Below, in pieces: positions 29,534 through 63,389 of a DNA stretch of 64,000 nt; the stretch's first letter is position 1; each line of letters opens with the position of its first letter. Source of the stretch: Thioalkalivibrio sulfidiphilus HL-EbGr7 (GTDB taxonomy: Bacteria > Pseudomonadota > Gammaproteobacteria > Ectothiorhodospirales > Ectothiorhodospiraceae); assembly GCF_000021985.1 (NCBI RefSeq), contig NC_011901.1, positions 2,170,001 to 2,234,000 on the forward strand, written 5' to 3'. Position numbers and translations under genes: made by a program. The notes beneath the pieces were generated by a model. It was given only the letters and a program-made list of their open reading frames with translations. It searched no databases and was not told the DNA's origin.

Positions 29534-31267
29534 TCATTGATGACCTTCACTGCCCCGGCGCATGGTGCCGCCCGCAGCGGGATGACCGCCGCCATGGGTC
29601 AATACCCTGGACAGGACCTCGGGCACCGGCTCGCCCATGAGTTCGTAGAGCACCGCCAGGTGATGCCTGTAGAGGCGCTCGAAATCGCTCACCGCGACGG
29701 CCGGGTTGTAGTCGCCGAACCACCAGCACCAGTCCGAGCCCTCGCAGATGGCCAGCTGTTCCAGGGCCTGTTGCAGGCGTTCACCGCCCAGACGCCCTGC
29801 GCGGATCGCCGTGTCCAGGTGCTGCTTGGCCTCGATGAGCAGTTCCCAGCCCCGGTTCTTGTCCTTGTCGCCGATCCAGGTGGAGAAGGTGCCATACACC
29901 CAGCTGCCGGCCACCAGTCTGGACAGGGCGCGGGGCGCGGGAATGGCCTGCACACAGTCGGCAAAGGTGGTCATCTCGATGAGCGGATGATCCGACAGGC
30001 GCGCGTACAGGGCGGTCAGGAAATGATAGCCGTTGGCGGGGTAGTACTCCCAGGCGTTTTCCCCGTCCAGGATCACGGAGACCACCGTGTCGGGCTCGAC
30101 ACCCCGGGCGGCGATGGTCTCCAGGTGGTGCACGAACTCCCCCACGGCGTCGTCCGCGTGCCAGTCGGCGTACTTGAAGCCGATGGCATCCGAGAGGCCA
30201 TCGTCGCGGAAGAAGCAGGCGGTGTCCGACTTTTCCACCCGGTAGGGACGGTGCAGCCAGCGGCGGTCCTCGCCCTCCTCCAGGGCGCCGGCCTCGCGCA
30301 GGCTGTTGGCCAGCACGGTCTCGCCGCTGGCGGTCCAGCGGATGCCGTGCTCGGAGAGCAGGCGCACCGTGGCGGTACTCAGACCACCCTCCGAAGGCCA
30401 GCAACCCAGGGGCTTGCGGCCGAAATAGCGTTCGAAGACCGCCATGCCCCGATCCAGATGCCAGCGCACCCGCTCCTCGCCCCCCGGATAGGCCTTTGCG
30501 GCGGGCAGGGGAGCCTCGGGCAGTGACTCCCGGGCGGCGCGCAGGTCCAGCAGCAGGGGCACGATGGGATGGGCGTAGGGGCTGAAGGCCAGTTCCACGC
30601 GCCCCGCCTCCGCCAGCTTGCGGTAGCGGGGCAGGACCGATGCCAGGATCTCGCCGATCACCGTGAGCAGGGTGCGGCGGTCGTGCAGATCGAACCCCCG
30701 CCCCTTCTCCATCAGGGCACGCACACGCCCGTCTTCCCGGCGCACCGTCTCCCCCAGCCAGGCCAGGTGGTACCAGGTGACCAGGTCGGCGAAAAAGCCC
30801 TCGGACTGGTAGGCAAGCCCCGCCGGATGCTCCCGCAGCCAGTGCACCATCTGGGTGAGCATGCGGTAGTCGGGATAGGGTTCGATCAGGTGTTTCTGGT
30901 TGGCCTTGAGACAGGCCTCGGCAAGCTGCAGGCGCTCGGCCTCGCCGGCGGGCGGGGTCTCGGCGGCGAGCGCCGCGAGCAGCGGGTCACGGATCTCGGC
31001 GCCATGATCGAGGTTGTCATGCACCTGCCGGGCGTAGTCGTCGATCTGTTCCAGCAGCACCGGGGCGAAGTTGACCACCACCCGCGCGCCGGGGGCCGCC
31101 TCCAGGTGGGCGACCATGTCCACGTAGTCCTTGATGGCGTGCAGGTAGGTCCACGGCAGGGCGTAGCGACGTGCCTGCACGTCCCGATACTGAGGCTGGT
31201 GCATGTGCCAGCACAGCACCACCCTGAGCGGCGCGGGCTTGCCTCCCCGCGCGCGCTCAGCGCACAT
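29534..31267 (-). CDS. Glycoside hydrolase family 57 protein
   Basis: This 577-residue GH57 enzyme is of the alpha-amylase/4-alpha-glucanotransferase type and acts on alpha-1,4-glucans. Seen are region 1 ([10 protein letters not shown]), the WPSEGGLS segment holding the likely nucleophile Glu and the DGENAWEYY segment holding the acid/base Asp. A Trp-rich C-terminal part ([11 protein letters not shown]) is characteristic of the bacterial group linked to glycogen genes. The ATG at 31267 overlaps the end of glgC by 11 bases, supporting co-translation. The exact substrate is unresolved. Confidence 0.9.
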
Positions 31268-32522
31268 AGCGCGTGGCGTTGCCGAGCATCTCCGGGGTCA
31301 CCACCACCACGCCGCCGGGGGAGACGTAGAAGCGACGGGCATCTTCTTCCGGGTCCTCGCCGATGACCGTGCCCTCGGGGATCCGGCAGCCCTTGTCGAT
31401 CACCGCCTTGTGGATGCGGCAGTAACGGCCCACCTCCACGTTGGGCAGCACCACGGAATCGTGCACCTCGGCGTAGGAGTTCACGATGACATTGGAGAAC
31501 AACAGGGAGTGACGCACCAGGGAGCCGGAGATGATGCAGCCGCCCGAGACCATGGAATCCACCGCCATGCCGCGGCGGTCCTCGTCGTCGAACACGAACT
31601 TGGCCGGCGGCAGCTGCTCCTGGTAGGTCCAGATGGGCCAGTCCATGTCGTAGAGGTTGAGTTCCGGGGTGACGCCGATCAGCTCCAGGTTCGAGGCCCA
31701 GTAGGCGTCGATGGTCCCCACGTCCCGCCAGTAGGCCTGGCTGCCGGTCTGGGTGTCGCGGAACGGGTAGGCCATCACCCGGTAGCGCTGGATCACGCTG
31801 GGGATGATGTCCTTGCCGAAGTCGTGGCTGGAGCCCGGGGTGTCGGCGTCCTTGATCAGCTGCTCGAACAGGAACTGGGTGTTGAACACGTAGATACCCA
31901 TGGAGGCCAGCGCCGTGTCCGGGCGGCCCGGCATGGGCGCCGGGTTCTCCGGCTTCTCGGCGAACTGGCGCACGCGTCCGTCCGCATCCACGGCCATCAC
32001 GCCGAAGGCCCTGGCGGTATCGAGGCCTACTTCAAGACAGCCCACGGTCATGTCCGCGCCGGACTCCACGTGGTAGGCGATCATGTCGCCGTAGTCCATC
32101 TTGTAGATGTGGTCGCCGGCCAGGATGAGCACGTAGCTGGGCTCGTGCTGGCGGATGATGTCCAGGTTCTGGTAGACCGCGTCCGCGGTGCCCTCGTACC
32201 AGGAGGTCTCGATGCGCTGCTGGGCCGGCAGCAGTTCGATGAACTCGCCGAACTCGCCGCGCAGGAAGCCCCAGCCCCGCTGGATGTGCTGGATCAGGGA
32301 ATGGGCCTTGTACTGGGTCAGCACGCCCACCTGGCGGATGCCCGAATTGATGCAGTTGGAGAGCGGGAAATCGATGATGCGAAACTTGCCGCCGAAGGGC
32401 ACCGCGGGTTTGGCACGCCACATGGTCAGCTGCTTGAGTCGGGAGCCTCGACCGCCGGCGAGGATCAGGGCCAGGGTGTCGCGGGTGATGCGGCTGACGA
32501 AACGCTGGGATTGGGGTTTCAT
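31257..32522 (-). CDS. glgC: Glucose-1-phosphate adenylyltransferase
   Basis: This 421-residue enzyme makes ADP-glucose, the committed step of glycogen synthesis. Seen are the nucleotide-binding [17 protein letters not shown], the [19 protein letters not shown] segment and [12 protein letters not shown]. The C-terminal left-handed beta-helix follows. The ATG at 32522 is chosen; an ATG at 32555 would add 11 residues with a weaker ribosome site. It is divergent from glgB. Confidence 0.96.
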
Positions 32523-32689
32523 GCCTCTTCGATGCTCCTTTGAGTGAGCCGGCATCTTGTCATCGTCGACATGTTAAGCTGACGACAGGAACGAGCCAGA
32601 ACGGCCGGTGCGTGATCGCGCATGATGCACATCCTTTTTTGCGATTCTATTACATTTAACATGAGACGACAGGGTCCTTGGGAGCCAAC

Positions 32690-34867
32690 ATGAAGGTTCA
32701 GGAAAAGTCCATGATCCCATCAGAGATCCGCCGGATTCTTGATGCCCGTCATCATGACCCCTTTTCGGTCCTGGGATACCACGAGATCGGCGGCGAGTTC
32801 CTGGTGCGCAGCTTCCTGCCCCAGGCCGCCGAGGCCTGGGTGGTGGAGGCCGGCGACGCCCCCATGGAACGCCTGGAGGGCACGGACCTGTTCGAATGGC
32901 GCGGCGATGCACTGCCCCGCCCCTATCGAATCCGCTGGAGCGACGGCCACGGCCACGAACACGTGGCCTGGGACCCCTACGGCTTCGAGCCCCTGCTCTC
33001 CGACTTCGACATCCACCTGTTCAACGAGGGTCGTCACTGGCATGCCTGGCGCCTCATGGGGGCCCATGTTCAGTCCGTGGGCGAGGTGGACGGCGTGCGC
33101 TTCACCGTCTGGGCCCCCGGTGCGGAACGGGTCAGCGTGGTGGGCGACTTCAACCGCTGGGACGGACGCTGCCACCCCATGCGGGTGCGCGGCGGCAGCG
33201 GCATCTGGGAGCTGTTCATCCCCGGGCTCGAACCCGGCTGCCTGTACAAGTACGAGATCCGCAACCGCGACAGTGGCGAGATCATGGTCAAGACCGACCC
33301 CTACGGCCAGAACTTCGAACTGCGCCCCAAGACCGCCGGCGTGGTGCCCGCGCCCGCCGACTACGACTGGCAGGACGGCGAGTGGCTTGCCCGGCGCCAC
33401 GGCGACGCCTGGCTGCACCGCCCCATGTCCATCTACGAGGTGCACCTGGGTTCCTGGCGGCGGGGACCGGAGGGGGAGTTTCTCGGCTACCGTGAACTGG
33501 CCCATGCCCTTGTGGACTACGTGAAGCAGCTCGGGTTCACCCACATCGAACTGCTGCCCGTCACCGAGCACCCCTTCGACGCCTCCTGGGGCTATCAGAC
33601 CACCGGCTACTACGCCCCCACCAGCCGCTTCGGCACCCCCGAAGACTTCCGCTATTTCGTGGATCACTGTCACGCCAATGACATTGGCGTGATCCTGGAC
33701 TGGGCCCCCGGCCACTTCCCCAAGGACCGCCACGCCCTGGCCCGCTTCGACGGCACGGCCCTGTACGAACACGAGGACCCGCGCAAGGGCGAGCACCGGG
33801 ACTGGGGCACCCTGATCTTCAACTACGGCCGCAACGAGGTGCGCAACTTCCTGGTGTCCAGCGCCCTGTACTGGGTGGAGGAATTCCACATCGACGGCCT
33901 GCGGGTGGACGCGGTCGCCTCCATGCTCTACCTCGACTACTCGCGCGAACCCGGCGACTGGGAACCCAACCGCTACGGCGGCAACGAGAACCTGGAGGCC
34001 ATCGACTTCATCCGGGAACTCAACAACGTGGTCCAGGGCCAGCACCCCGGCGCCCTGATCATCGCCGAGGAATCCACCTCCTGGCCCCAGGTCACCCGCC
34101 CCACCTGGCTGGGCGGCCTGGGTTTCTCCATGAAGTGGAACATGGGCTGGATGCACGACACCCTGGAGTACTTCAAGAAGGACCCCATCCACCGCCACTA
34201 CCACCACGACCAGCTCACCTTCGGCCTGCTGTACGCCTTCACGGAGAACTTCGTCCTGCCCTTCTCCCACGACGAGGTGGTGCACGGCAAACGCTCCCTG
34301 CTCTACCGCATGCCCGGCGACGAGTGGCAGCGCTTCGCCAACCTGCGCCTGCTGTACACCTACATGTGGGCCTACCCCGGCAAGAAGCTGCTGTTCATGG
34401 GCAGCGAGTTCGGCCAGGGGGATGAATGGGATGCCGCGAACCAGCTGGACTGGTACGTGCTCGACTACCCCCTGCACCAGGGCATGCAGCACCTGGTGGG
34501 CGACCTCAACCGTCTGTACCGGGACCACCCCGCCCTGCACCAGCACGACTTCGACTGGCAGGGCTTCGAGTGGATCGACTGCCACGACGCCGCCCAGTCG
34601 GTGCTGAGCTTCCTGCGCAAGGACGACGATGAACTGATGGTGGTGGCCCTGAGCTTCACCCCCGTGCCCCGGGAGGGCTACCGCCTGGGCGTGCCCCGCC
34701 CCGGCCGCTACCAGGTGGTCCTCAACTCCGACTCCAGCCACTACGGCGGCAGCAACCTGGGCCAGCCCGCCGCCCAGAGCGAGGACATCCCCTGGATGGG
34801 CCACCCCCACTCCATCGTCCTGACCCTGCCGCCCCTGGGGGGGCTGATCCTGCGGCACAGCGGCTGA
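32690..34867 (+). CDS. glgB: 1,4-alpha-glucan branching enzyme
   Basis: This 725-residue GH13 enzyme creates alpha-1,6 branches in glycogen. The N-terminal region is followed by a CBM48 domain ([20 protein letters not shown]) and the catalytic barrel with [17 protein letters not shown] (nucleophile Asp), [10 protein letters not shown] (Glu) and [10 protein letters not shown] (Asp). The ATG at 32690 has GGGAG at good spacing; a TTG four codons earlier is unlikely. It is divergently transcribed from glgC, so the glycogen genes share one control region. Confidence 0.97.
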
Positions 34868-34917
34868 CGCGATATTCACCCCGGGCCTGGCGGAAGGCTC
34901 CTGACCTGCATTCACCC

Positions 34918-34931
34918 AAAGGGCTGAGCCC
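34918..34931. other. Small palindrome after glgB
   Basis: AAGGGCTGAGCCCT forms a short hairpin about 50 bases after the glgB stop. It might terminate glgB transcription, but there is no T-run. The rest of the 264-bp gap holds the REP unit at 35011 and the hicA promoter. Confidence 0.35.
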
Positions 34932-35010
34932 TGCAGGGTATGGGTTTTGCCGGAGCCCGACCCTCCGGTCGAATGCATGCGCCACAACAGGCAGACGGAC
35001 ACAGCCCACG

Positions 35011-37314: not shown

Positions 37315-38781
37315 CTAAGAACGCCCGTACGTATCCTCGAAGCGCACGATATCGTCCTCCCCCAGATACGCCCCCGACTGCACCTCGATCAGCTCCAGCG
37401 GGATACGCCCCGGGTTCTCCAGGCGATGCTTGACCCCCAGCGGGATGTAGGTGGACTCGTTCTCGCTGAGCACGAACACCTCCTCCCCCCGGGTGATACG
37501 CGCCGTCCCCCGCACCACCACCCAGTGCTCCGCCCGGTGGTGATGCATCTGCAGCGACAGCTTCTCGCCAGGTTTCACGGTGATGCGCTTGACCTGGAAG
37601 CGGTCGGCCCCGTCGATGCACTCGTAGGTCCCCCAGGGCCTGGCAACACGGCGGTGCACCTGGGCCTCGTCCCGGCCCGCCTCGCGCAGCCGGGCAACGA
37701 TCTGCTTCACGTCCTGGGTGCGGGCCCTGTCCATCACCAGCACCGCATCCCCGGTCTCGACGATCACCAGGTCCTCCAACCCCACCGCGGCCACCAGCCG
37801 CTGCTGGGCGTGGATGTAGGTGTTGCGCACCCCTTCCGTGACCACGTCCCCCTTGAATACGTTGCCCTGGGCATCCCGCTCGCCTACCTCCCAGAGCGAG
37901 TCCCAGGAGCCCACGTCATTCCAGCCCGCGTCCAGGGGCACCACCATGGCGCGGTCCGTGCGCTCCATGACCGCATAGTCAATGGAATCCGAACGACAGT
38001 TGCTGAAGGCCTCCTCGTCCAGACGCAGGAAATCCCGGTCCCGCTGCGCCCCCTTGAGCGCCGCACGGCAGGACTCAAGGATATCCGGCGCGTGACGCTC
38101 CATCTCGGCCAGATAGGCGGAGGCCTTGAACAGGAACATGCCGCTGTTCCAGAAATAATCGCCGGAGGCGAGATAGGATTCGGCGGTGGCCTGGTCGGGT
38201 TTTTCGATAAAGCTGAGAACGGGAAAGGCGGAACTGTCCTTCGTGCTTTGTGCTTTGTGCTTTGTGTTCTTCTCCGAAGCACCAAGCACCAAGGACGAAG
38301 CTCCCGCGCGATCAGCGCGAATATACCCATACCCCGTATGGGCCGACTGGGGCACCACACCAAAGGTCACCAGCGCACCGCTCCGGGCCTGCTCCAGCCC
38401 GATGGACAGGGCCCGGTGAAACGCGGCGATATCCCGGATGACATGGTCCGCCGGCATCACCAGCAACACCGACTCCGGGTCCGGCTGCGACAGCGCCGCC
38501 AGGGCCACCGCCGGTGCGGTATTGCGCCCCACGGGTTCGAGCAGGATCGCCTCGGGCTCAAGCTCCAACTGGCGCATCTGCTCCGCCACCAGGAAGCGGT
38601 GCGCCTCATTGCAGACCACCAGGGGCGCCCGGGCACCGGGAAACCCGGCGATCCGCTCCACCGTCGCCTGCAACAGGCTCAGATCCCCGCCGGTCAGGGG
38701 CAGAAACTGCTTGGGATAGAGCTCACGGGACAAGGGCCAGAGACGGGTACCGGAACCGCCAGAGAGAATCACGGGAATCAC
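37315..38781 (-). CDS. manC: Mannose-1-phosphate guanylyltransferase/mannose-6-phosphate isomerase with in-frame repeat insert
   Basis: This 488-residue bifunctional type II PMI-GMP enzyme makes GDP-mannose. The N-terminal domain has VILSGGSGTRLWPLSRELYP, FIEKPD and DAGWNDVGSW. The C-terminal cupin (RPWGTYECIDGADRFQVKRI, HHHRAEHWVVV) is the isomerase part. GTG at 38781 with AAGGAG upstream is the start. Between HTGYGYIRADR and FPVLSFIEKP lies an Ala/Ser/Lys-rich stretch of about 22 residues ([20 protein letters not shown]) encoded by a CTTTGTG heptamer hairpin, which is not native to the family. It feeds gmd/fcl and mannose-containing glycans. Confidence 0.95.
   Translation of the reverse strand: MIPVILSGGSGTRLWPLSRELYPKQFLPLTGGDLSLLQATVERIAGFPGARAPLVVCNEAHRFLVAEQMRQLELEPEAILLEPVGRNTAPAVALAALSQPDPESVLLVMPADHVIRDIAAFHRALSIGLEQARSGALVTFGVVPQSAHTGYGYIRADRAGASSLVLGASEKNTKHKAQSTKDSSAFPVLSFIEKPDQATAESYLASGDYFWNSGMFLFKASAYLAEMERHAPDILESCRAALKGAQRDRDFLRLDEEAFSNCRSDSIDYAVMERTDRAMVVPLDAGWNDVGSWDSLWEVGERDAQGNVFKGDVVTEGVRNTYIHAQQRLVAAVGLEDLVIVETGDAVLVMDRARTQDVKQIVARLREAGRDEAQVHRRVARPWGTYECIDGADRFQVKRITVKPGEKLSLQMHHHRAEHWVVVRGTARITRGEEVFVLSENESTYIPLGVKHRLENPGRIPLELIEVQSGAYLGEDDIVRFEDTYGRS
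38236..38296. repeat. CTTTGTG heptamer hairpin inside manC
   Basis: A left arm with three CTTTGTG units begins GTCCTTCGTGC. The right arm GAAGCACCAAGCACCAAGGAC-like is its approximate inverse, with a short centre. The insertion keeps the manC reading frame. The same family occurs at 40131, 40869 and 62306. Confidence 0.88.
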
Positions 38782-38890
38782 AAACAACGCTCCTTGTGCA
38801 TCGGTTTGGTTTTGAACCTGCCAAACAGCATACAATCAGCACGTGAAAAATGGTTAATCCAGGCGACAACAAGTCAAACAGACACCGAAA

Positions 38891-40126
38891 ATGACCCACA
38901 CTGCCCATATCCCAGAACACCAGGCCGCCAGTCTGCTTGCCAAGGCCGCCATCGTCCTGATGCCCATCGCCATCATGTTCTCCCGCTCCCTGGCGGAGCT
39001 GGCGGTGGTACTCGTAGGCGTGCTTTTTCTGGTCAGGAGCTACCGGACAAAGGAATGGGCTTGGGTCAAGGAACCCTGGTTCATCGCCGCCCTGGTATTC
39101 ACGGCCTACCTCACCCTGATCTCGGCCCCCATGGCTGTCCACCCCGAGATCGCCCTGCCCCATTCCCTGTTCTTCATCCGCTGGCCCCTGTTCGCCGCCG
39201 CGTTGGCCTACTGGGTGTTCGCAAGCCCGGAACTCAGGCGCTGGTTCGAAGTAACGATCGCAGCGATCGTGGTCTTCATCATTGCCGACAGCCTGCTTCA
39301 GTACTTCACGGGATCCGACATTTTCGGAAAAGCGCCGCACAGCACGACCCGCCTCACGGGGCCCTTTGACCGCCCGGTTCCTGGCACTTATACGCTACGG
39401 ATCATCTTCATCGCTCTGGCCGCACTCTATTTCAGCCAGCACCTGAAAAACGACCTGACAAGGAACATCACGCTGCTGGCCGCACTTTCTATCGGCGCCG
39501 CCTTCATGTTCCTGACAGGAGAGCGTGTGGCCTTCATGAGCTTCCTGCTGGGCAGTGGCATCGTGATCCTGGCCTTGATCATGACCCAGAAACGAGGACG
39601 TCTCTGGATCCTTTTGGGTGGCGCCCTGCTGGCAATCGCCATCGCCGGGGCACTTGCCACACAACCCAAGATGGTCGAGCGGACCATTGGGAGCACCGCG
39701 AGCACGATTGGCAATTTCAACGAATCTCCCTACGGCCTAGTTTACGGCAACGCCCTGATGCTCTGGAGAGACGCCCCCTGGACAGGGGTCGGCATCAAAA
39801 ATTATCGCCCTATCTGCAAAGATGTAACCCAAGACCCAAGCATTGAAGGCTGGTTCTGCTCACACCCGCACAACACCTATGTCGAAATCCTGGCGGAAGG
39901 CGGGCTGATCGGGGTATTGCTCTTCAGCACGATGCTGGCATTGATCTTGTGGCACTTCCTCAAGGCCATCCCACGACAAGCCATGACCGCGGGCTTCGCC
40001 ATAGCCCTCTTCCTGGCCACCTTCTGGCCCATCATGTCGACCATGAGTATCACCAGCGGGTGGATTGCCGCGATTATCTGGATGGGCATGGGATGGGCCA
40101 TTAACGTGACCCGGGGAGAAGGGTAG
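38891..40126 (+). CDS. O-antigen ligase/polymerase (Wzy_C family) membrane protein
   Basis: This 411-residue protein has about ten hydrophobic helices and a large periplasmic loop. The Wzy_C/WaaL signatures are TGERVAFMSFLLGSG, GVGIKNYR and the HPHNTYVEILAEGGLIGV segment, where the His/Asn/Glu residues are typical. It may be the lipid A-core ligase WaaL or a polysaccharide polymerase; the sequence alone does not separate these. It is divergent from manC and followed directly by a heptamer array. Confidence 0.88.
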   Translation: MTHTAHIPEHQAASLLAKAAIVLMPIAIMFSRSLAELAVVLVGVLFLVRSYRTKEWAWVKEPWFIAALVFTAYLTLISAPMAVHPEIALPHSLFFIRWPLFAAALAYWVFASPELRRWFEVTIAAIVVFIIADSLLQYFTGSDIFGKAPHSTTRLTGPFDRPVPGTYTLRIIFIALAALYFSQHLKNDLTRNITLLAALSIGAAFMFLTGERVAFMSFLLGSGIVILALIMTQKRGRLWILLGGALLAIAIAGALATQPKMVERTIGSTASTIGNFNESPYGLVYGNALMLWRDAPWTGVGIKNYRPICKDVTQDPSIEGWFCSHPHNTYVEILAEGGLIGVLLFSTMLALILWHFLKAIPRQAMTAGFAIALFLATFWPIMSTMSITSGWIAAIIWMGMGWAINVTRGEG

Positions 40127-40130
40127 GGTT

Positions 40131-40235
40131 TGTGCTTGGTGCTTGGTGCTTGGTGCTTGGTGCTTGGTGCTTGGTGCTCTGCGAAGGATACAACCCATCA
40201 GCCCACAAAGTACGAAGCACCAAGTACCAAGCACA
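40131..40235. repeat. TGCTTGG heptamer array with inverted arm, left of vapBC
   Basis: Six perfect TGCTTGG units (40133-40174) begin seven bases after the ligase stop codon. After a spacer of about 39 bases an inverted arm (CCAAGCA/CCAAGTA units, 40214-40235) follows. It mirrors the array at 40869-40953, so vapBC lies between two copies in the same orientation. Confidence 0.92.
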
Positions 40236-40279
40236 ACCAACATCTGCTATCGTCATCTGATATCACATCGGAGTTTGCC

Positions 40280-40501
40280 ATGCGCACTGTAGTCGATCTT
40301 CCCGACGAAGAACTCCAGGCCATCAAGGCTCTGGCCAAGCGGGAGAAAATCTCCCAGGCTGAGGCCATCCGGCGCGCCGTCCGGGCATACCTCCACGCCC
40401 GCCCGGCACCCGATAAAGAATCACCCGCATTCGGCCTATGGGAGGGGCGGGAGGAAGGAATTCAGTATCAGGACACACTCAGGGATGAGTGGACTCGATG
40501 A
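40280..40501 (+). CDS. vapB: VapB-type ribbon-helix-helix antitoxin
   Basis: This 73-residue antitoxin has an N-terminal ribbon-helix-helix fold (MRTVVDLPDEELQAIKALAK, then SQAEAIRRAVRAYL) and a C-terminal toxin-binding tail (FGLWEGREEGIQYQD). The ATG at 40280 follows GGAG. Its stop overlaps the vapC start as ATGA. A TGATATCA palindrome lies 15 bases upstream as a possible operator. Confidence 0.92.
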   Translation: MRTVVDLPDEELQAIKALAKREKISQAEAIRRAVRAYLHARPAPDKESPAFGLWEGREEGIQYQDTLRDEWTR

Positions 40502-40863
40502 AGGCGGTCTTCGACACCAACATACTGGTGGACTACCTCAATGGACTTCCCCAGGCTGCCGAGGAATTGAATCGTTACAACCAACGGTTGATCAGCCAGA
40601 TCACCTGGATGGAAGTCATGGCAGGCTGCCGGGACGACCAGGAAGAGCAATTGGTACGCGGCTTCCTTGCCACTTTCGATGTGGTACCGATCGACGCACA
40701 GGTTGCCGAAACAGCGGTCATACTCCGACGCACCAACCGCCTCAGACTCCCGGACGCCATCATCCTCGCCACAGCCGAATGCAGTCACGCGCTCCTGGTG
40801 ACCCGCGACACGAAGGATTTTCCTTCCGACACCCCGGGGATACGGGTGCCGTATAGGTTGTAA
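40498..40863 (+). CDS. vapC: VapC-type PIN-domain toxin ribonuclease
   Basis: This 121-residue PIN ribonuclease has acidic metal-binding residues in AVFDTNILVDYL (Asp6), ITWMEVMAG (Glu) and LRLPDAIILATA (Asp), with TRDTKDF near the end. The ATG at 40498 overlaps the vapB stop; a GTG three codons upstream is less likely. Its stop codon is six bases from the second heptamer array. Confidence 0.93.
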   Translation: MKAVFDTNILVDYLNGLPQAAEELNRYNQRLISQITWMEVMAGCRDDQEEQLVRGFLATFDVVPIDAQVAETAVILRRTNRLRLPDAIILATAECSHALLVTRDTKDFPSDTPGIRVPYRL

Positions 40864-40868
40864 GGTAG

Positions 40869-40953
40869 TGCTTGGTGCTTGGTGCTTGGTGCTTGGTGCT
40901 TGGTGCTTGGTACTTGGCTGTCACAAAGTACAAATCACCAAGCACCAAGCACC
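40869..40953. repeat. TGCTTGG heptamer array with inverted arm, right of vapBC
   Basis: Six TGCTTGG units plus one TACTTGG (40869-40917) are followed by the inverted units CAAAGTA, CAAATCA, CCAAGCA, CCAAGCA (40924-40953). It ends five bases from the wcaJ stop codon. The orientation is the same as the array at 40131. Confidence 0.92.
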
Positions 40954-40957
40954 GCCT

Positions 40958-42376
40958 TCAATATGCATTCCTCCCCACAAACCCCTTAAAAACCGTCAAA
41001 AAAATGATCTTCAAATCAAACCACAACGACCAGTTCTCGATGTAATACAGGTCATACTCCACCCGCTTCTGCATCTTCTCCAGCGTATCCGTCTCACCAC
41101 GGTAGCCGTTGACCTGAGCCCACCCTGTAATGCCGGGCTTCACCTTGTGCCGAAGCATGTAGTAATCAATATGCTCCTTGTAGTACTCGTTATGTGCGAG
41201 CGCATGGGGACGGGGCCCGACAATCGACATCCGGCCCTGGAGCACATTAAAGAACTGGGGTAACTCATCCAGGCTGGTCCGTCGCAAGAAGGCCCCGAAG
41301 CGCGTAACCCGAGGATCCGCCTTGGACGCCTGGGTGACCTGCCCATCCGCCTCCTGGTGCAACACCATGCTGCGGAATTTATACACCCTGATCTCACGGC
41401 CGTCCCAGCCATGGCGTTTCTGCTTGAACAACACAGGCCCCGGCGAACTGAGCTTCACGCCGATGGCAATTGCGACCAGCAAGGGGCTGATCAGAATCAG
41501 GATCAACAGCGAGAGCACCCTGTCTTCAATGGCCTTGACGAATCTGTTTACCCCCTCCATGGGGGAAACCGAGAGATTCATGACGGGCAGGCCAGCTACG
41601 TCTGTGACTGAATGATTCAAGAGACGGAGACCAAACAGATCCGGCACGAATCGGATATCAACGGTTTCATTGCGCAATGAATGTAATACATCCTGAAGAC
41701 GGTCTGCCTCTTGCAAAGGCATCGCAATCCAGATCTGGTCGACATCTTCTTTTCGAACGAATTCGGCCAGTTCTGAAACCCTGCCCAACATGGGGTAGCC
41801 ACAAGGTGAGGTGCCCTTGAGACCCTCTCGATCACAGAAGAACCCGATGATTTTGAGGCCAAGCCATGGCGCTGCCTTGATACGCTCGGCAACCTGCCTA
41901 CCGGCTCCCGTTGCGCCGACGATGACGATGCGCCGATAGTTGTAACCACGAGCACGCAAGCTGTTCAAAATATTCCTAAGGATGAACCGACTCGCGAGCA
42001 AGACAAACCACGTACTCGTCGCCCAGATCAAGGCCCAACCACGGGAATAGCTCTCACCCATCTTGGTAAAAAAGGCGATCGCGACCAAGGCTGTGAAGAC
42101 AAAGACCCAGGCCGCGGTGATAAGTCGCAACTCTTCCCAGAGGGAGGCTCCCCTCCAGGGGCGATAGAGGTTAAATCGCTGAAATACGAGCGCAGCGAGC
42201 AGCGCACCGATAAGCAATGCCGCTTCATAATGATCGTCTAGGGAAGGAACTCCCAAATACAGCCAATGTGATAACCAGCCACAGAATGCGACAATAAACC
42301 AGTCGATCACATGAAGGGTGACATTAAGGAACCCGGCATGCTCCTTGAGCACACCACCGGAGCGCCTGGGACTCAT
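40958..42376 (-). CDS. wcaJ: Undecaprenyl-phosphate glucose phosphotransferase (WcaJ-like)
   Basis: This 472-residue polyisoprenyl-phosphate hexose-1-phosphate transferase starts lipid-linked repeat-unit assembly. It has N-terminal membrane helices (about 15-120), a CoA-binding-like Rossmann domain (RIVIVGATGAGRQVAERI) and the C-terminal transferase domain with KQKRHGWDGREIRVYKFRSM, SLDELPQFFNVLQGRMSIVG and GITGWAQVNGYRGET. It probably acts with gmd, fcl and wcaI-like genes on a colanic-acid-like polymer. Confidence 0.94.
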   Translation of the reverse strand: MSPRRSGGVLKEHAGFLNVTLHVIDWFIVAFCGWLSHWLYLGVPSLDDHYEAALLIGALLAALVFQRFNLYRPWRGASLWEELRLITAAWVFVFTALVAIAFFTKMGESYSRGWALIWATSTWFVLLASRFILRNILNSLRARGYNYRRIVIVGATGAGRQVAERIKAAPWLGLKIIGFFCDREGLKGTSPCGYPMLGRVSELAEFVRKEDVDQIWIAMPLQEADRLQDVLHSLRNETVDIRFVPDLFGLRLLNHSVTDVAGLPVMNLSVSPMEGVNRFVKAIEDRVLSLLILILISPLLVAIAIGVKLSSPGPVLFKQKRHGWDGREIRVYKFRSMVLHQEADGQVTQASKADPRVTRFGAFLRRTSLDELPQFFNVLQGRMSIVGPRPHALAHNEYYKEHIDYYMLRHKVKPGITGWAQVNGYRGETDTLEKMQKRVEYDLYYIENWSLWFDLKIIFLTVFKGFVGRNAY

Positions 42377-42484: not shown

Positions 42485-42892
42485 TCAGACCGAAAATGGG
42501 TTTACCACCTGAACGCCAGTTGGCTCAAAGTGGCGAACATTTCGAGTCACTACGGTTAGGCCATATTCATGCGCAGTAGCGCTGATCAGCAATTCAGCTC
42601 CGTCATTGCCCAGCTCCGCGGAGAGCCGGCCCCAACGACGGGCCACCGCTGTGTCAACAGGCAGAATCCGGTCCGAGTAGAACTTCAGAACAATGTCCAG
42701 CCACTCTGCCAAAGCAGAAGCGAACACCGCATTCTTTGTCTGCTGACGCATGATACCGCGCTCGACCTCCCCGATGGTCACAACGCTCAGGAAAAGATCT
42801 GTGGAACGCTGTGCGGCCACCCAGTCGACAACCCCCGGGTCTCTTTCCTTGCGGCGCAACTCGGACAGGACAACCGTATCCAGCAGATACAT
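42485..42892 (-). CDS. FitB/VapC-type PIN-domain toxin
   Basis: This 135-residue PIN ribonuclease shows MYLLDTVVLSELRR (Asp5, Glu11), VTIGEVERGI (Glu) and TRNVRHFEPTGV near the end. At the position where many VapC toxins have Asp before an Ile/Leu-rich helix, this one has GAELLISATA, so a Glu may substitute. Its ATG overlaps the antitoxin stop as ATGA. Confidence 0.9.
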   Translation of the reverse strand: MYLLDTVVLSELRRKERDPGVVDWVAAQRSTDLFLSVVTIGEVERGIMRQQTKNAVFASALAEWLDIVLKFYSDRILPVDTAVARRWGRLSAELGNDGAELLISATAHEYGLTVVTRNVRHFEPTGVQVVNPFSV

Positions 42893-43152
42893 CAGAACTC
42901 CACATCGCGCTGACGTAGCGGGAGGCGCTCGAACGGTTGGTCATCCTGGGGCATGTCCAGAAGTACCGAATTGAACGAGGGCGCAGCCACCTGTTCAAGC
43001 TGCTTCAGCCGCTCGAACATCTCTGCGGACAATACGACACCCACCCGTTTACCACGACGGGTGACCCACTGCGGCTCACCACGCAAAGCCGCATCAACCA
43101 CCGCACTGAAGCGGTTCTTGGCATCATGGAGGGACCAAGTTGAAGAGGCCAT
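42892..43152 (-). CDS. Phd/YefM-type antitoxin
   Basis: This 86-residue Phd-fold antitoxin begins MASSTWSLHDAKNRFSAVVD and continues RGEPQWVTRRGKRVGVVLSA. The C-terminal part (FERLPLRQRDVEF) should bind the PIN toxin. The ATG at 43152 matches the family. The direct repeats at 43163-43184 are a candidate operator. Confidence 0.92.
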   Translation of the reverse strand: MASSTWSLHDAKNRFSAVVDAALRGEPQWVTRRGKRVGVVLSAEMFERLKQLEQVAAPSFNSVLLDMPQDDQPFERLPLRQRDVEF

Positions 43153-43162
43153 TACCCACACC

Positions 43163-43220: not shown

Positions 43221-44186
43221 TCAAGCCGGGGTCAGGTCTAGTATTATCATGTTTACTCTCTCCCTCAACGCCTCATCCTCAACCATGCGCCGGCGCAAGG
43301 CCCGGACCGCCGACCCGGCGCTGGCATAACTCGCCAACCCGAAGGCAACGGCAATCTCCGAAAGCGTCATCCCGCAGGCCTCCTGGCACACGTACATCAC
43401 CACGGAGCGCGCCGGACTGCCCACGCCCCGCCCCCGCCTCGAAGTCCAGATCTCCTGTTCGTCCACGCCAAACACCTCGCAGGTCACCCGCACCGCGTCA
43501 TCGAGCGTCGGCCGCGGACGGTTGCGTGCCACTTCGGGCACATCAACGCTCGGCATTCGTCCCTCCAGCGCCTGCCGGCGGAACGCTTCATCGCCCAAGA
43601 TGCTGGACGGCCCGCGACCGTCGTAGAAACGGCACAGTGCCTCACCGGAATCCCCCTCCATATAGGCCCGATATCGGGCATGCACACGGCGCTTGCCGAT
43701 GGCCCCAAGCACGTACCCGGTTTGCAACCAGTCAGGTGTCGGATCGAGCCCCACATATGCCCGATAGCTTGACCAGGGGTAATCGGCCAGATCGTCAACC
43801 AGCCCCGCCTGAAGAGGATTGCGGTGGATGTAGCGCGACAGTTCGAGCCAATGGCTCTGTGCATCGACCAGAACGGCCTTGTAACGCCCCCGGAACAACG
43901 GCCCGTCCAGATCTTCGCAGCGATTGAAATACTGGGTGTAGACACCGTTCACGTGCCGCATGATCCGTTGCATGTTAGCTTCCGGCGTGCGCAGCAGCAG
44001 ATGATAGTGGTTGCCCATCAGGCAGTACGCATGCCACTCCGCGTTGAAGCGAGCATGTGTGTCGGCCAGCAGCGACAGGAAATACTTCCGCTCGGCGTCC
44101 GTATTGAATACCGTACGCCGCCCCGCACCCCGGTTCATCACGTGATACCAGGCACCCGGATACTCGATGCGCAGGGGGCGGGCCAT
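43221..44186 (-). CDS. REP-associated tyrosine transposase (RAYT/TnpREP)
   Basis: This 321-residue Y1 HUH nuclease is related to IS200/IS605 transposases. The HUH motif is His60-Tyr61-His62 in GNHYHLLL. The catalytic Tyr is at about 119 in LSRYIHRNPLQAGLV. The C-terminal half has a DnaA-like helix-turn-helix region (MTLSEIAVAFGLASYASAGS). RAYTs nick single-stranded REP hairpins. The last codons (ILDLTPA) are the inverted motif GGGGTCAGGTCTAG itself, and the opposite copy lies 33 bases upstream of the start, so the gene is enclosed by inverted copies. Confidence 0.92.
   Translation of the reverse strand: MARPLRIEYPGAWYHVMNRGAGRRTVFNTDAERKYFLSLLADTHARFNAEWHAYCLMGNHYHLLLRTPEANMQRIMRHVNGVYTQYFNRCEDLDGPLFRGRYKAVLVDAQSHWLELSRYIHRNPLQAGLVDDLADYPWSSYRAYVGLDPTPDWLQTGYVLGAIGKRRVHARYRAYMEGDSGEALCRFYDGRGPSSILGDEAFRRQALEGRMPSVDVPEVARNRPRPTLDDAVRVTCEVFGVDEQEIWTSRRGRGVGSPARSVVMYVCQEACGMTLSEIAVAFGLASYASAGSAVRALRRRMVEDEALRERVNMIILDLTPA
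43228..43241 (-). repeat. REP motif copy 1 (inverted)
   Basis: GGGGTCAGGTCTAG is the reverse complement of CTAGACCTGACCCC. It overlaps the 3' coding end of the transposase gene. Confidence 0.85.
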
Positions 44187-46358: not shown

Positions 46359-46687
46359 AACTGCTTTTGGATCAAAACATATCGCGCCGCATCGTCAACG
46401 AACTGCAGACTCCTTTTCCCGGCACCAATCAAGTTCAATTACTTGGCCTTGAGCATGCGGATGACGCGACAATCTGGCGCTATGCCCGAGATAATGGATT
46501 TGCCATCGTAACCAAGGATGCGGGCTTTCAGGAGATGGCTTTACTGAGAGGACCACCTCCCAAAGTCATCTGGCTCCAGTGCGGCAATGCCACGAACACC
46601 GCCATCCTCCACCTTCTCATATCCCGGACACAGGCAATCAAGGACTTCCTCGACTCCGGAGAAATCGTCTGCCTTGAACTCAGTTAA
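46355..46687 (+). CDS. DUF5615 PIN-like toxin
   Basis: This 110-residue PIN-like protein has MKLLLDQNISRRIVNEL with the first acidic residue (Asp6), VTKDAGFQEMALLRGPPPK with the second acidic site and a C-terminal segment IKDFLDSGEIVCLE. The ATG overlaps the DUF433 stop. Its stop codon falls inside the left inverted repeat of the element at 46683. Confidence 0.9.
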   Translation: MKLLLDQNISRRIVNELQTPFPGTNQVQLLGLEHADDATIWRYARDNGFAIVTKDAGFQEMALLRGPPPKVIWLQCGNATNTAILHLLISRTQAIKDFLDSGEIVCLELS

Positions 46688-46946
46688 CCCGCATATCTCA
46701 CCGGGATCGCGGGAGCAGGCGAAGGATTCGTGTCTGTAGGCGCCGCTCTGGAGCGAAACCCATAGCAATAGCTATGGGTTGAGTGAAGAGCAAGCCTACG
46801 GGCGCGAAGACGAGCCTGAACCGCGATAGGACTCCGGCGGGAACAGACTGTCATGCTGAGGTTGCCGACCTTATCAGAATATTCCACTTGCGTCTCAGCC
46901 TGTTACGCGTCCGCCGGTGTCCGACCGGTGAGATATGCAGGTTAAC
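46683..46946. mobile_element. MITE-like element with 22-bp terminal inverted repeats
   Basis: Left end GTTAACCCGCATATCTCACC (46683-46704 with two more bases) and right end (46925-46946) are inverted with one mismatch over 22 bases. The 264-bp interior codes for nothing recognised and contains the perfect hairpin AACCCATAG/CTATGGGTT (46757-46780). This is the form of a non-autonomous miniature transposable element. Its parent element was not identified. Confidence 0.6.
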
Positions 46947-62305: not shown

Positions 62306-62333
62306 CTTTGTGCTTTGTGCTTTGTGCTTTGTG
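62306..62333. repeat. CTTTGTG heptamer array at the rfbB start
   Basis: Four perfect CTTTGTG units lie from 62306 to 62333, three bases from the rfbB ATG. Together with CTTCGAGACACAAA next to it, the array has the composition of the element inside manC at 38236. Confidence 0.87.
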
Positions 62334-62468
62334 CTTCGAGACACAAATGTTCTCGCGCCAAACACAGGTTATCCGTGCAGTTCCCCGCAAATTCAGGCAA
62401 TTAGGCACCAACAGCCCTACAAGATCAAGGCTTGATTCAGACGAGCGTCTGAGATGGGGCGATTGATG

Positions 62469-62496
62469 GTCAGGGGTCAGGGGTCAGGGGTCAGGG
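62469..62496. repeat. GTCAGGG heptamer array at the hepT 3' end
   Basis: Four GTCAGGG units are tandem at 62469-62496 and include the hepT stop codon at 62491. Related GTCAGTG units lie on the other side of mntA at 63295. Confidence 0.87.
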
Positions 62497-62907
62497 GTCG
62501 GTTTTCCATTGCGCCCACTTGGCATATCGGCCATAGACATCAATCGCTGGCTCGACTGCGGCGACAACCCTGTCCAGATCGATCACATCGTAGAGATGGG
62601 TAAGCACATTGCGCATGGCGCAGGCATCCATCAAGGAGTCGGCCAAATCATCTGGGAGTCCAAGGCGATCACGCATGACCTGGAATACTTCCCGGTAGCT
62701 GGAAGCCAGTTTATATCCATCAGCACGTAGCAATTGCAAACCTATATCGGCCGCAGATTCACAGAGTAACTGCAGTAAACGTTCAATGGCGTAGTGCTCC
62801 CGCCTGCGGGTTGGCGTATCCAAATGGCTATAGTGCGCCAGATCCGCCAGGAATTGCTGGAGCATGCCAAGTTTTCTTTCCAGGACTTCTCGGTGATCAG
62901 GCGACAT
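62491..62907 (-). CDS. hepT: HepT-type HEPN toxin
   Basis: This 138-residue HEPN-fold RNase-like toxin has the catalytic motif RNVLTHLY (Arg99, His104, Tyr106). The surrounding helices (EHYAIERLLQLLCESAADIG) fit the DUF86/HepT family. The stop is provided by the heptamer array at 62469. It lies three bases from mntA, which is the antitoxin. Confidence 0.93.
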   Translation of the reverse strand: MSPDHREVLERKLGMLQQFLADLAHYSHLDTPTRRREHYAIERLLQLLCESAADIGLQLLRADGYKLASSYREVFQVMRDRLGLPDDLADSLMDACAMRNVLTHLYDVIDLDRVVAAVEPAIDVYGRYAKWAQWKTDP

Positions 62908-62910
62908 GAC

Positions 62911-63288
62911 TCATGCCCTGGCCTTGGCGTTTAGGAAGGCTGCATCGGCATGCAGGAAGAAGGCTCGATCCTGCTCACGCGCGAACTTGCCCGGCAGGGA
63001 CTCATGCAGACACACACCGTCCCGAAAGACCTGAAAACGGGTAAGAGGCGAGGTGCCGTCCTGAAGCACCAGCAGATCGACAGGCTGGGGTTTGAGGATG
63101 TCTTCCAGTTCACGAAGCCATCGCCCTTGGGTCATGAGGCCTGGTACTTCCCCAGGAACGACGGCTAGGTCTATATCCCTCCCCTGCCCTTCCCGTGCCA
63201 CGGACCCGAACAGCACGAGTAGCTGCCAGCCATGATATGCCGCCAGGGTCTTGAGGGCTTCCAGTTGATGAGGTGAAAGAGCGGGCAT
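62911..63288 (-). CDS. mntA: MntA-type nucleotidyltransferase antitoxin
   Basis: This 125-residue minimal nucleotidyltransferase has the catalytic GS-x8-DxD motif (Gly28-Ser29, Asp38, Asp40 in FGSVAREGQGRDIDLAV). MntA neutralises HepT by AMPylating its tyrosine. The ATG at 63288 is six bases from the GTCAGTG array. It precedes hepT in the operon. Confidence 0.93.
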   Translation of the reverse strand: MPALSPHQLEALKTLAAYHGWQLLVLFGSVAREGQGRDIDLAVVPGEVPGLMTQGRWLRELEDILKPQPVDLLVLQDGTSPLTRFQVFRDGVCLHESLPGKFAREQDRAFFLHADAAFLNAKARA

Positions 63289-63294
63289 TTCTTC

Positions 63295-63389
63295 GTCAGT
63301 GGTCAGTGGTCAGTGGTCAGTGGTCAGTGGTCAGTGGTCAGTGGTCAGTGGTCAGTGGTCAAGAATATTAAACAACTTACCACTGACTA
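63295..63389. repeat. GTCAGTG heptamer array with short inverted arm
   Basis: About nine and a half perfect GTCAGTG units (63295-63361) are followed by CACTGAC near 63381. The inverted arm contains the phosphomannomutase stop codon, and the array reaches within six bases of the mntA ATG. Confidence 0.92.

Follow-up and report, generated by a model that had tools for sequence, protein, structure and literature searches.

Why should a toxin–antitoxin (TA) operon be bracketed by two arrays of the same heptamer? In Thioalkalivibrio sulfidiphilus HL-EbGr7 the vapBC module occupies such a position in the window that we analysed, a stretch of 64,000 nucleotides (positions 2170001–2234000 of one 3,464,554-bp contig; coordinates refer to the window unless given as genome positions). 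A sequence-only reading of this DNA had proposed that the arrays provide a direct repeat through which the module could be inserted or lost by recombination. Our analysis favours a different answer: both arrays are likely to belong to a genus-specific class of dyad-symmetric short tandem repeats found across the genome, the bracketing being a product of gene-end placement and of homogenisation among neighbouring elements.

The interval between the arrays holds only vapB and vapC (40280–40863), as had been claimed. On the plus strand, vapB (40280–40501) encodes a ribbon–helix–helix (RHH) antitoxin with an RHH_1 match and vapC (40498–40863) a toxin with a PIN-domain match, its best orthologue, 88% identical, being found in the congener G003; the pair is a predicted type II VapBC operon of RHH antitoxin and PIN toxin. 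Upstream lies an O-antigen ligase gene (38891–40126, plus strand; Wzy_C match), whose stop codon precedes the left array by 6 nt. The right array begins 5 nt past the vapC stop codon, and 5 nt separate its inverted arm from the stop codon of wcaJ (40958–42376, minus strand), which encodes a WcaJ-type sugar transferase with a Bac_transf match. Both arrays thus adjoin gene ends, as the earlier reading held. There are no promoter-like or terminator-like matches at 40000–41000. Searches of plasmid and viral contigs returned no vapBC relative, and a simple scan of the viral contigs with three TGCTTGG units revealed no matching inverted arm. The ligase query found no relative in genome contigs, and that with wcaJ gave, outside the genus, only homologues of 38–76% identity. 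A second TA module, with a Phd/YefM antitoxin and a PIN toxin (42485–43161, minus strand), lies between wcaJ and a RAYT-like gene.

The left element (40132–40234) consists of GTGCTTG heptamers and an inverted arm. Its 5' arm (40132–40178, plus strand) comprises six GTGCTTG units followed by GTGCT, and is separated by a 25-nt spacer from a degenerate inverted arm, CACAAAGTACGAAGCACCAAGTACCAAGCAC (40204–40234, minus strand); the plus-strand hairpin has a predicted energy of -65.3 kcal/mol (z -7.4). The right element (40868–40953) is similarly built, with a 5' arm of six GTGCTTG units and GTACTTG (40868–40917, plus strand), a degenerate inverted arm (40922–40953, minus strand) and a plus-strand hairpin of -52.4 kcal/mol (z -6.4). 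Read in the register of the earlier description, the six TGCTTGG units and inverted arm reported on the left are present (units starting at 40133, 40140 and so on to 40168), as are the six plus one on the right (starting at 40869 to 40904), the seventh being the variant TACTTGG at 40911. TGCTTGG occurs 23 times in the window, against 11.65 ± 3.3 expected, a number reached by no shuffle, and 15 of these 23 matches fall inside the two elements. Pure TGCTTGG doublets are confined, in the whole genome, to these two elements, and all 11 genome-wide occurrences of TGCTTGGTGCTTGG lie within them; the reversed control pattern of TGCTTGGTGCTTGG has none genome-wide. The arrays do form a direct repeat, the longest exact match being 44 bp (40132–40175 and 40868–40911) at an offset of 736 bp. 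They had been described as having the same orientation, but each element is a dyad, and its left arm would read TGCTTGG even in a copy turned the other way round, so that the shared orientation is weak evidence. Polarity lies solely in which side of an element carries the longer, perfect arm.

The two elements are far from alone. In 414 kb of sampled sequence we found 32 tandem arrays of period 7, seven of period 8 and eight of period 9, together with 17 of period 14, which are multiples of 7; other periods were rare, and an order-2 Markov shuffle of the same 414 kb yielded no array. Heptamers are therefore over-represented relative to other periods, in tandem and dispersed, as expected of inverted heptameric SSRs, and they likewise pair convergently into hairpins, with fold z values from -4.5 to -7.4. 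Among 36 paired period-7 elements, 34 are intergenic (13 in convergent, 17 in tandem and four in divergent gaps) and two lie within genes. Where an element edge faces a gene 3' end it is at most 12 nt from the stop codon in 72% of cases. Between tandem gene pairs, 13 elements abut the stop codon where uniform placement within the spacer would give 9.3, so the 3'-end preference is moderate; the gene calls were made within this analysis and start sites are uncertain. Both vapBC-flanking elements conform to such placement, one following the ligase stop codon and the other filling the convergent gap between vapC and wcaJ. The window also contains a GTGCTTT/GTGCTTG element (38235–38301) in frame within manC (37315–38835, minus strand).

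Bracketing by arrays of one type is not peculiar to vapBC either. Spans of up to 3 kb are bracketed in this way 11 times in 814 kb, their contents including archease, pfkB, dUTPase with an amino-acid kinase, and RDD/PilZ genes. Three of the 11 contain TA modules (vapBC, mqsRA and hepT/mntA), which is possibly an excess. The mqsRA pair (genome positions 2105154–2105880) is flanked on both sides by 8-mer arrays of the same type (CGCGGAGG). The hepT/mntA-type pair (HepT-like and Polbeta; 62491–63288, minus strand) sits between tandem heptamer arrays of GGTCAGG (62468–62499) and GTCAGTG (63295–63361), and a sibling GTGCTTT array ending in GTGCTTC is found at 62306–62338 on the plus strand.

Neighbouring elements tend to resemble each other. 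Units were compared by direct distance, since single-link typing lumped unrelated heptamers together; by unit distance 22 of 108 pairs of elements no more than 5 kb apart have a common unit (at most one mismatch), against 8.6 ± 2.8 after permutation (p 0.0002). With 7-mers alone the trend is weaker (20 adjacent same-unit pairs against 12.6, p 0.015). Of the eight GTGCTTB doublet loci in the genome, four fall within 25 kb (p about 1e-4, with the window size chosen post hoc). The class is also narrowly distributed. Triplet arrays of GTGCTTB and GTCMGTK are confined, among 47 genomes of the family, to the genus of T. sulfidiphilus, and across the phylum three TGCTTGG units in tandem occur in one of 299 genomes and three GTCMGTK units in two of 398.

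If the arrays were traces of vapBC movement, relatives might be expected to display a single array between the ligase and wcaJ genes, a check that the sequence-only reading had itself put forward. No such empty site, nor any other excised or single-array state of the vapBC site, was found among four congeners (G001–G004). In G001 and G002 both vapBC and the ligase gene are absent here and manC is followed directly by wcaJ, the stop codon of which is abutted by an inverted element of GTCAGTT/GTCCGTT units. Relatives lacking vapBC do therefore bear an element at the position where a trace of an array had been sought, though one built from a different heptamer, and the slot at the wcaJ 3' end is independent of vapBC. 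The nearest relative, G004, is about 96% identical at 29760–35009 and lacks the entire segment that starts with the ligase gene and runs to about 63.4 kb, which is more than vapBC alone.

G003 presents a different picture. Its vapBC orthologue (VapC 88% identical) lies in another gene neighbourhood, with manC about 3 kb away, and directly upstream of vapB is an element holding the one GTGCTTB doublet of the whole 3.6-Mb genome. Homology to the window stops at the outer edge of that element, which sits between two 5' ends and not at a 3' end; on the right of vapBC the sequence is broken by a MITE-like repeat of a different kind, which includes a run of N. Since the sole doublet of this type adjoins vapB in a new location, the left element and vapBC have probably moved together.

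Comparison of conserved sites indicates that the elements change quickly. Of 19 HL-EbGr7 sites located in G004, the unit is the same at 11 and different at five, and three have no array; at one of the 11 (genome position 2082799) the units, CAAGATG and TTGAATC, are one-step relatives and not identical. Unit number differs at orthologous sites of HL-EbGr7 and G004 (10 against 7, and 16 against 6), and unit type differs at sites with conserved flanks, for example at genome positions 2257625, 2259532, 2304819 and 2309188. GTCAGTG-type elements occupy the codon site of the window's manC element in G001 and G003 and, in two copies, in G002; G004 has no element there. At genome position 2264605 the G004 loop is the reverse complement of that in HL-EbGr7 (15 of 17 nt, by eye) with flanks 99% identical, the signature expected of recombination between inverted arms, and such an event is suggested. 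The flanks of sites at which copy number, heptamer or loop has changed are about 88–99% identical. At 2262555 and 2264605 the relatives carry 13–17 kb more DNA, of which just one border has an element, and a simple direct-repeat deletion at these two sites is accordingly unsupported. Distinct from the arrays are two MITE-like inserts with inverted ends, at genome positions 2298898–2299159 (about 260 bp) and 2311139–2311380 (about 240 bp), each with a clean empty site in G004, and a repeat of about 260 bp at 46685–46946 of the window, which is present dozens of times in G003 and G004.

These observations can be accommodated in a simple scheme. An element comprises a 7-mer array, sometimes of 8-mers or 9-mers, a short loop and a degenerate inverted array, which together can form a long hairpin or cruciform, and it usually abuts a stop codon. 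As the site comparisons show, unit number changes and one heptamer type is exchanged wholesale for another; elements would also recombine between their own inverted arms and be homogenised with their neighbours, and homogenisation might have given both sides of vapBC their pure TGCTTGG units. The operon would be bracketed because it is small and lies between two occupied gene-end slots, that after the ligase stop codon and that in the vapC/wcaJ gap, and the left element probably travelled with it. The most likely account of the bracket is thus the general gene-end rule combined with local homogenisation. Homogenisation, or arrival within one acquired segment, can explain matching units with no duplicated scar. 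A counterpoint is the G003 doublet, placed exactly at vapB, which is more specific than the gene-end rule predicts. More tentatively, gene ends in this genus may constitute persistent hairpin slots that are repeatedly refilled by interchangeable heptamers, the slots being kept while their sequences are exchanged between close species and homogenised among neighbours. Homologous recombination could then shuffle small modules, TA pairs among them, that lie between two slots of the same type.

How well does the original proposal, that vapBC was inserted between, or can be excised across, two direct arrays with one left behind on loss, compare with this? The exact 44-bp repeat, its copies 736 bp apart, would be a plausible substrate for recombination, two further TA modules lie between arrays of the same type, and in G003 a GTGCTT element has stayed beside vapBC in other surroundings. 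Against these stand the missing single-array site in the four congeners, the different heptamer at the wcaJ end in G001 and G002, and the absence from G004 of the whole segment from the ligase onwards, not just of vapBC. The inverted arms of the two elements are not mutually closest: that of the left element matches an element at 3242.6 kb, about 1.03 Mb away, at 30 of 31 positions and that of the right element at 28 of 31, which is unlike a duplicated scar pair. We regard the proposal as rather unlikely. Insertion or loss of vapBC through the array pair may occur, but since the arrays belong to a large and fast-changing class that occupies gene ends genome-wide and also brackets housekeeping genes, they are probably not insertion scars. 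Slightly better placed, though still less probable than our preferred reading, is the idea that the elements act as gene-end RNA structures, whether transcription attenuators, stabilisers of mRNA 3' ends or insulators. Any stable hairpin would then serve, so that sequence would be interchangeable and position kept, and the very stable hairpins, the edges near stop codons and the retention of sites while their sequence is replaced are all in keeping with this. The region around vapBC (40000–41000) has no T-tract or terminator-like match, however, elements are also present within manC and, in G003, upstream of vapB, and three of the 19 sites have no array in the nearest relative.

Two mobile-element interpretations fare less well. 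The elements might be miniature, REPIN-like ones that a RAYT (Y1) transposase mobilises; the gene at 43221–44186 would be an example, its RAYT-like product matching Y1_Tnp and Bac_DnaA_C, and this very strain is known for RAYTs with REPINs (PMC3116915) as well as for GTAG-5 REPs (PMC3733652). Y1_Tnp genes are nevertheless present in 43 of the 47 family genomes, whereas the two heptamer types searched are confined to the genus, and the element feet carry no consistent GTAG/CGTC tag: GTAG stands just outside both vapBC elements, once in the region of the ligase stop codon, and is absent from the feet of the elements at 2097 kb and 3242 kb and of that in G003. With neither the hairpin-foot tag nor a RAYT-linked distribution, identity with REPs was rejected, and mobilisation of this kind appears improbable. 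The RAYT-like gene itself has orthologous DNA in G001 and G002. Still more remote is the suggestion that vapBC is an integron cassette and the arrays attC-like sites. The attC sites of integrons are also imperfect palindromes after stop codons, and the genome encodes an integron integrase scoring above the curated family cut-off (genome positions 2845117–2846055). That gene is about 635 kb from vapBC (2210280), which is not in an array adjacent to intI; the elements adjoin housekeeping genes genome-wide, and heptamer arrays do not resemble attC architecture, no R'/R'' core being seen by eye. On distance, architecture and placement, identity with attC was likewise rejected.

The lesson for the locus is one of caution, namely that matching arrays around a gene module need not mean an insertion scar. 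The turnover of heptamer type at fixed sites is a more interesting result than the vapBC bracket. Tandem heptamer repeats have been noted in several bacteria and their dynamics little explored; close relatives with differing length, loop or heptamer at shared sites make the spread and role of the arrays directly testable.

The VapBC proteins themselves are ordinary, the genes for the RHH antitoxin and the PIN-domain toxin overlapping as in other type II VapBC modules, and only the flanking elements stand out. REPs and REPINs with their RAYTs, known from the same strain, are comparable in being short dispersed palindromes that sometimes lie in genes, with a RAYT present; they are palindromes of 20–40 bp with a GTAG/CGTC tag, as opposed to the heptamer arrays seen here, which the consulted passages of these papers do not describe (PMC3116915; PMC3733652). 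The GTCAGTT heptamer that is abundant in G002 equals csR1.1 (ttgtcagttgtcagttgtca) of Nostoc PCC 7120, an intergenic heptamer repeat grouped with the cyanobacterial STRRs; it belongs to another phylum and is listed as hairpin-free, unlike the elements here (PMC2408588). Similar in form are the heptanucleotide multicopy elements of Geobacter metallireducens, in which four or five tandem heptamers occur between and within genes and several sets are drawn as paired, looped elements. Their units differ (GGGACCG, MTYCTGA) and are interpreted there as regulatory sites, and the available part of that account does not report unit turnover at orthologous sites (PMC2700814). The best reading is that inverted heptameric repeats are already known and that the vapBC-flanking elements are a variant of these. 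The GGGAATC repeats of Xanthomonas and the GGGGA(T/C)T repeats of Nostoc (Rehm, 2015; PMC4692102) are a close parallel, being mostly intergenic heptamer arrays of which many form inverted pairs (70 in Xcc and 75 in Xac; PMC4692102). The GTGCTTG unit has no GGG tract and so lacks the G-quadruplex-type feature particular to the Xanthomonas/Nostoc type. In those organisms one G-rich unit characterizes each genome group, whereas in Thioalkalivibrio many types coexist and are replaced site for site between close relatives.
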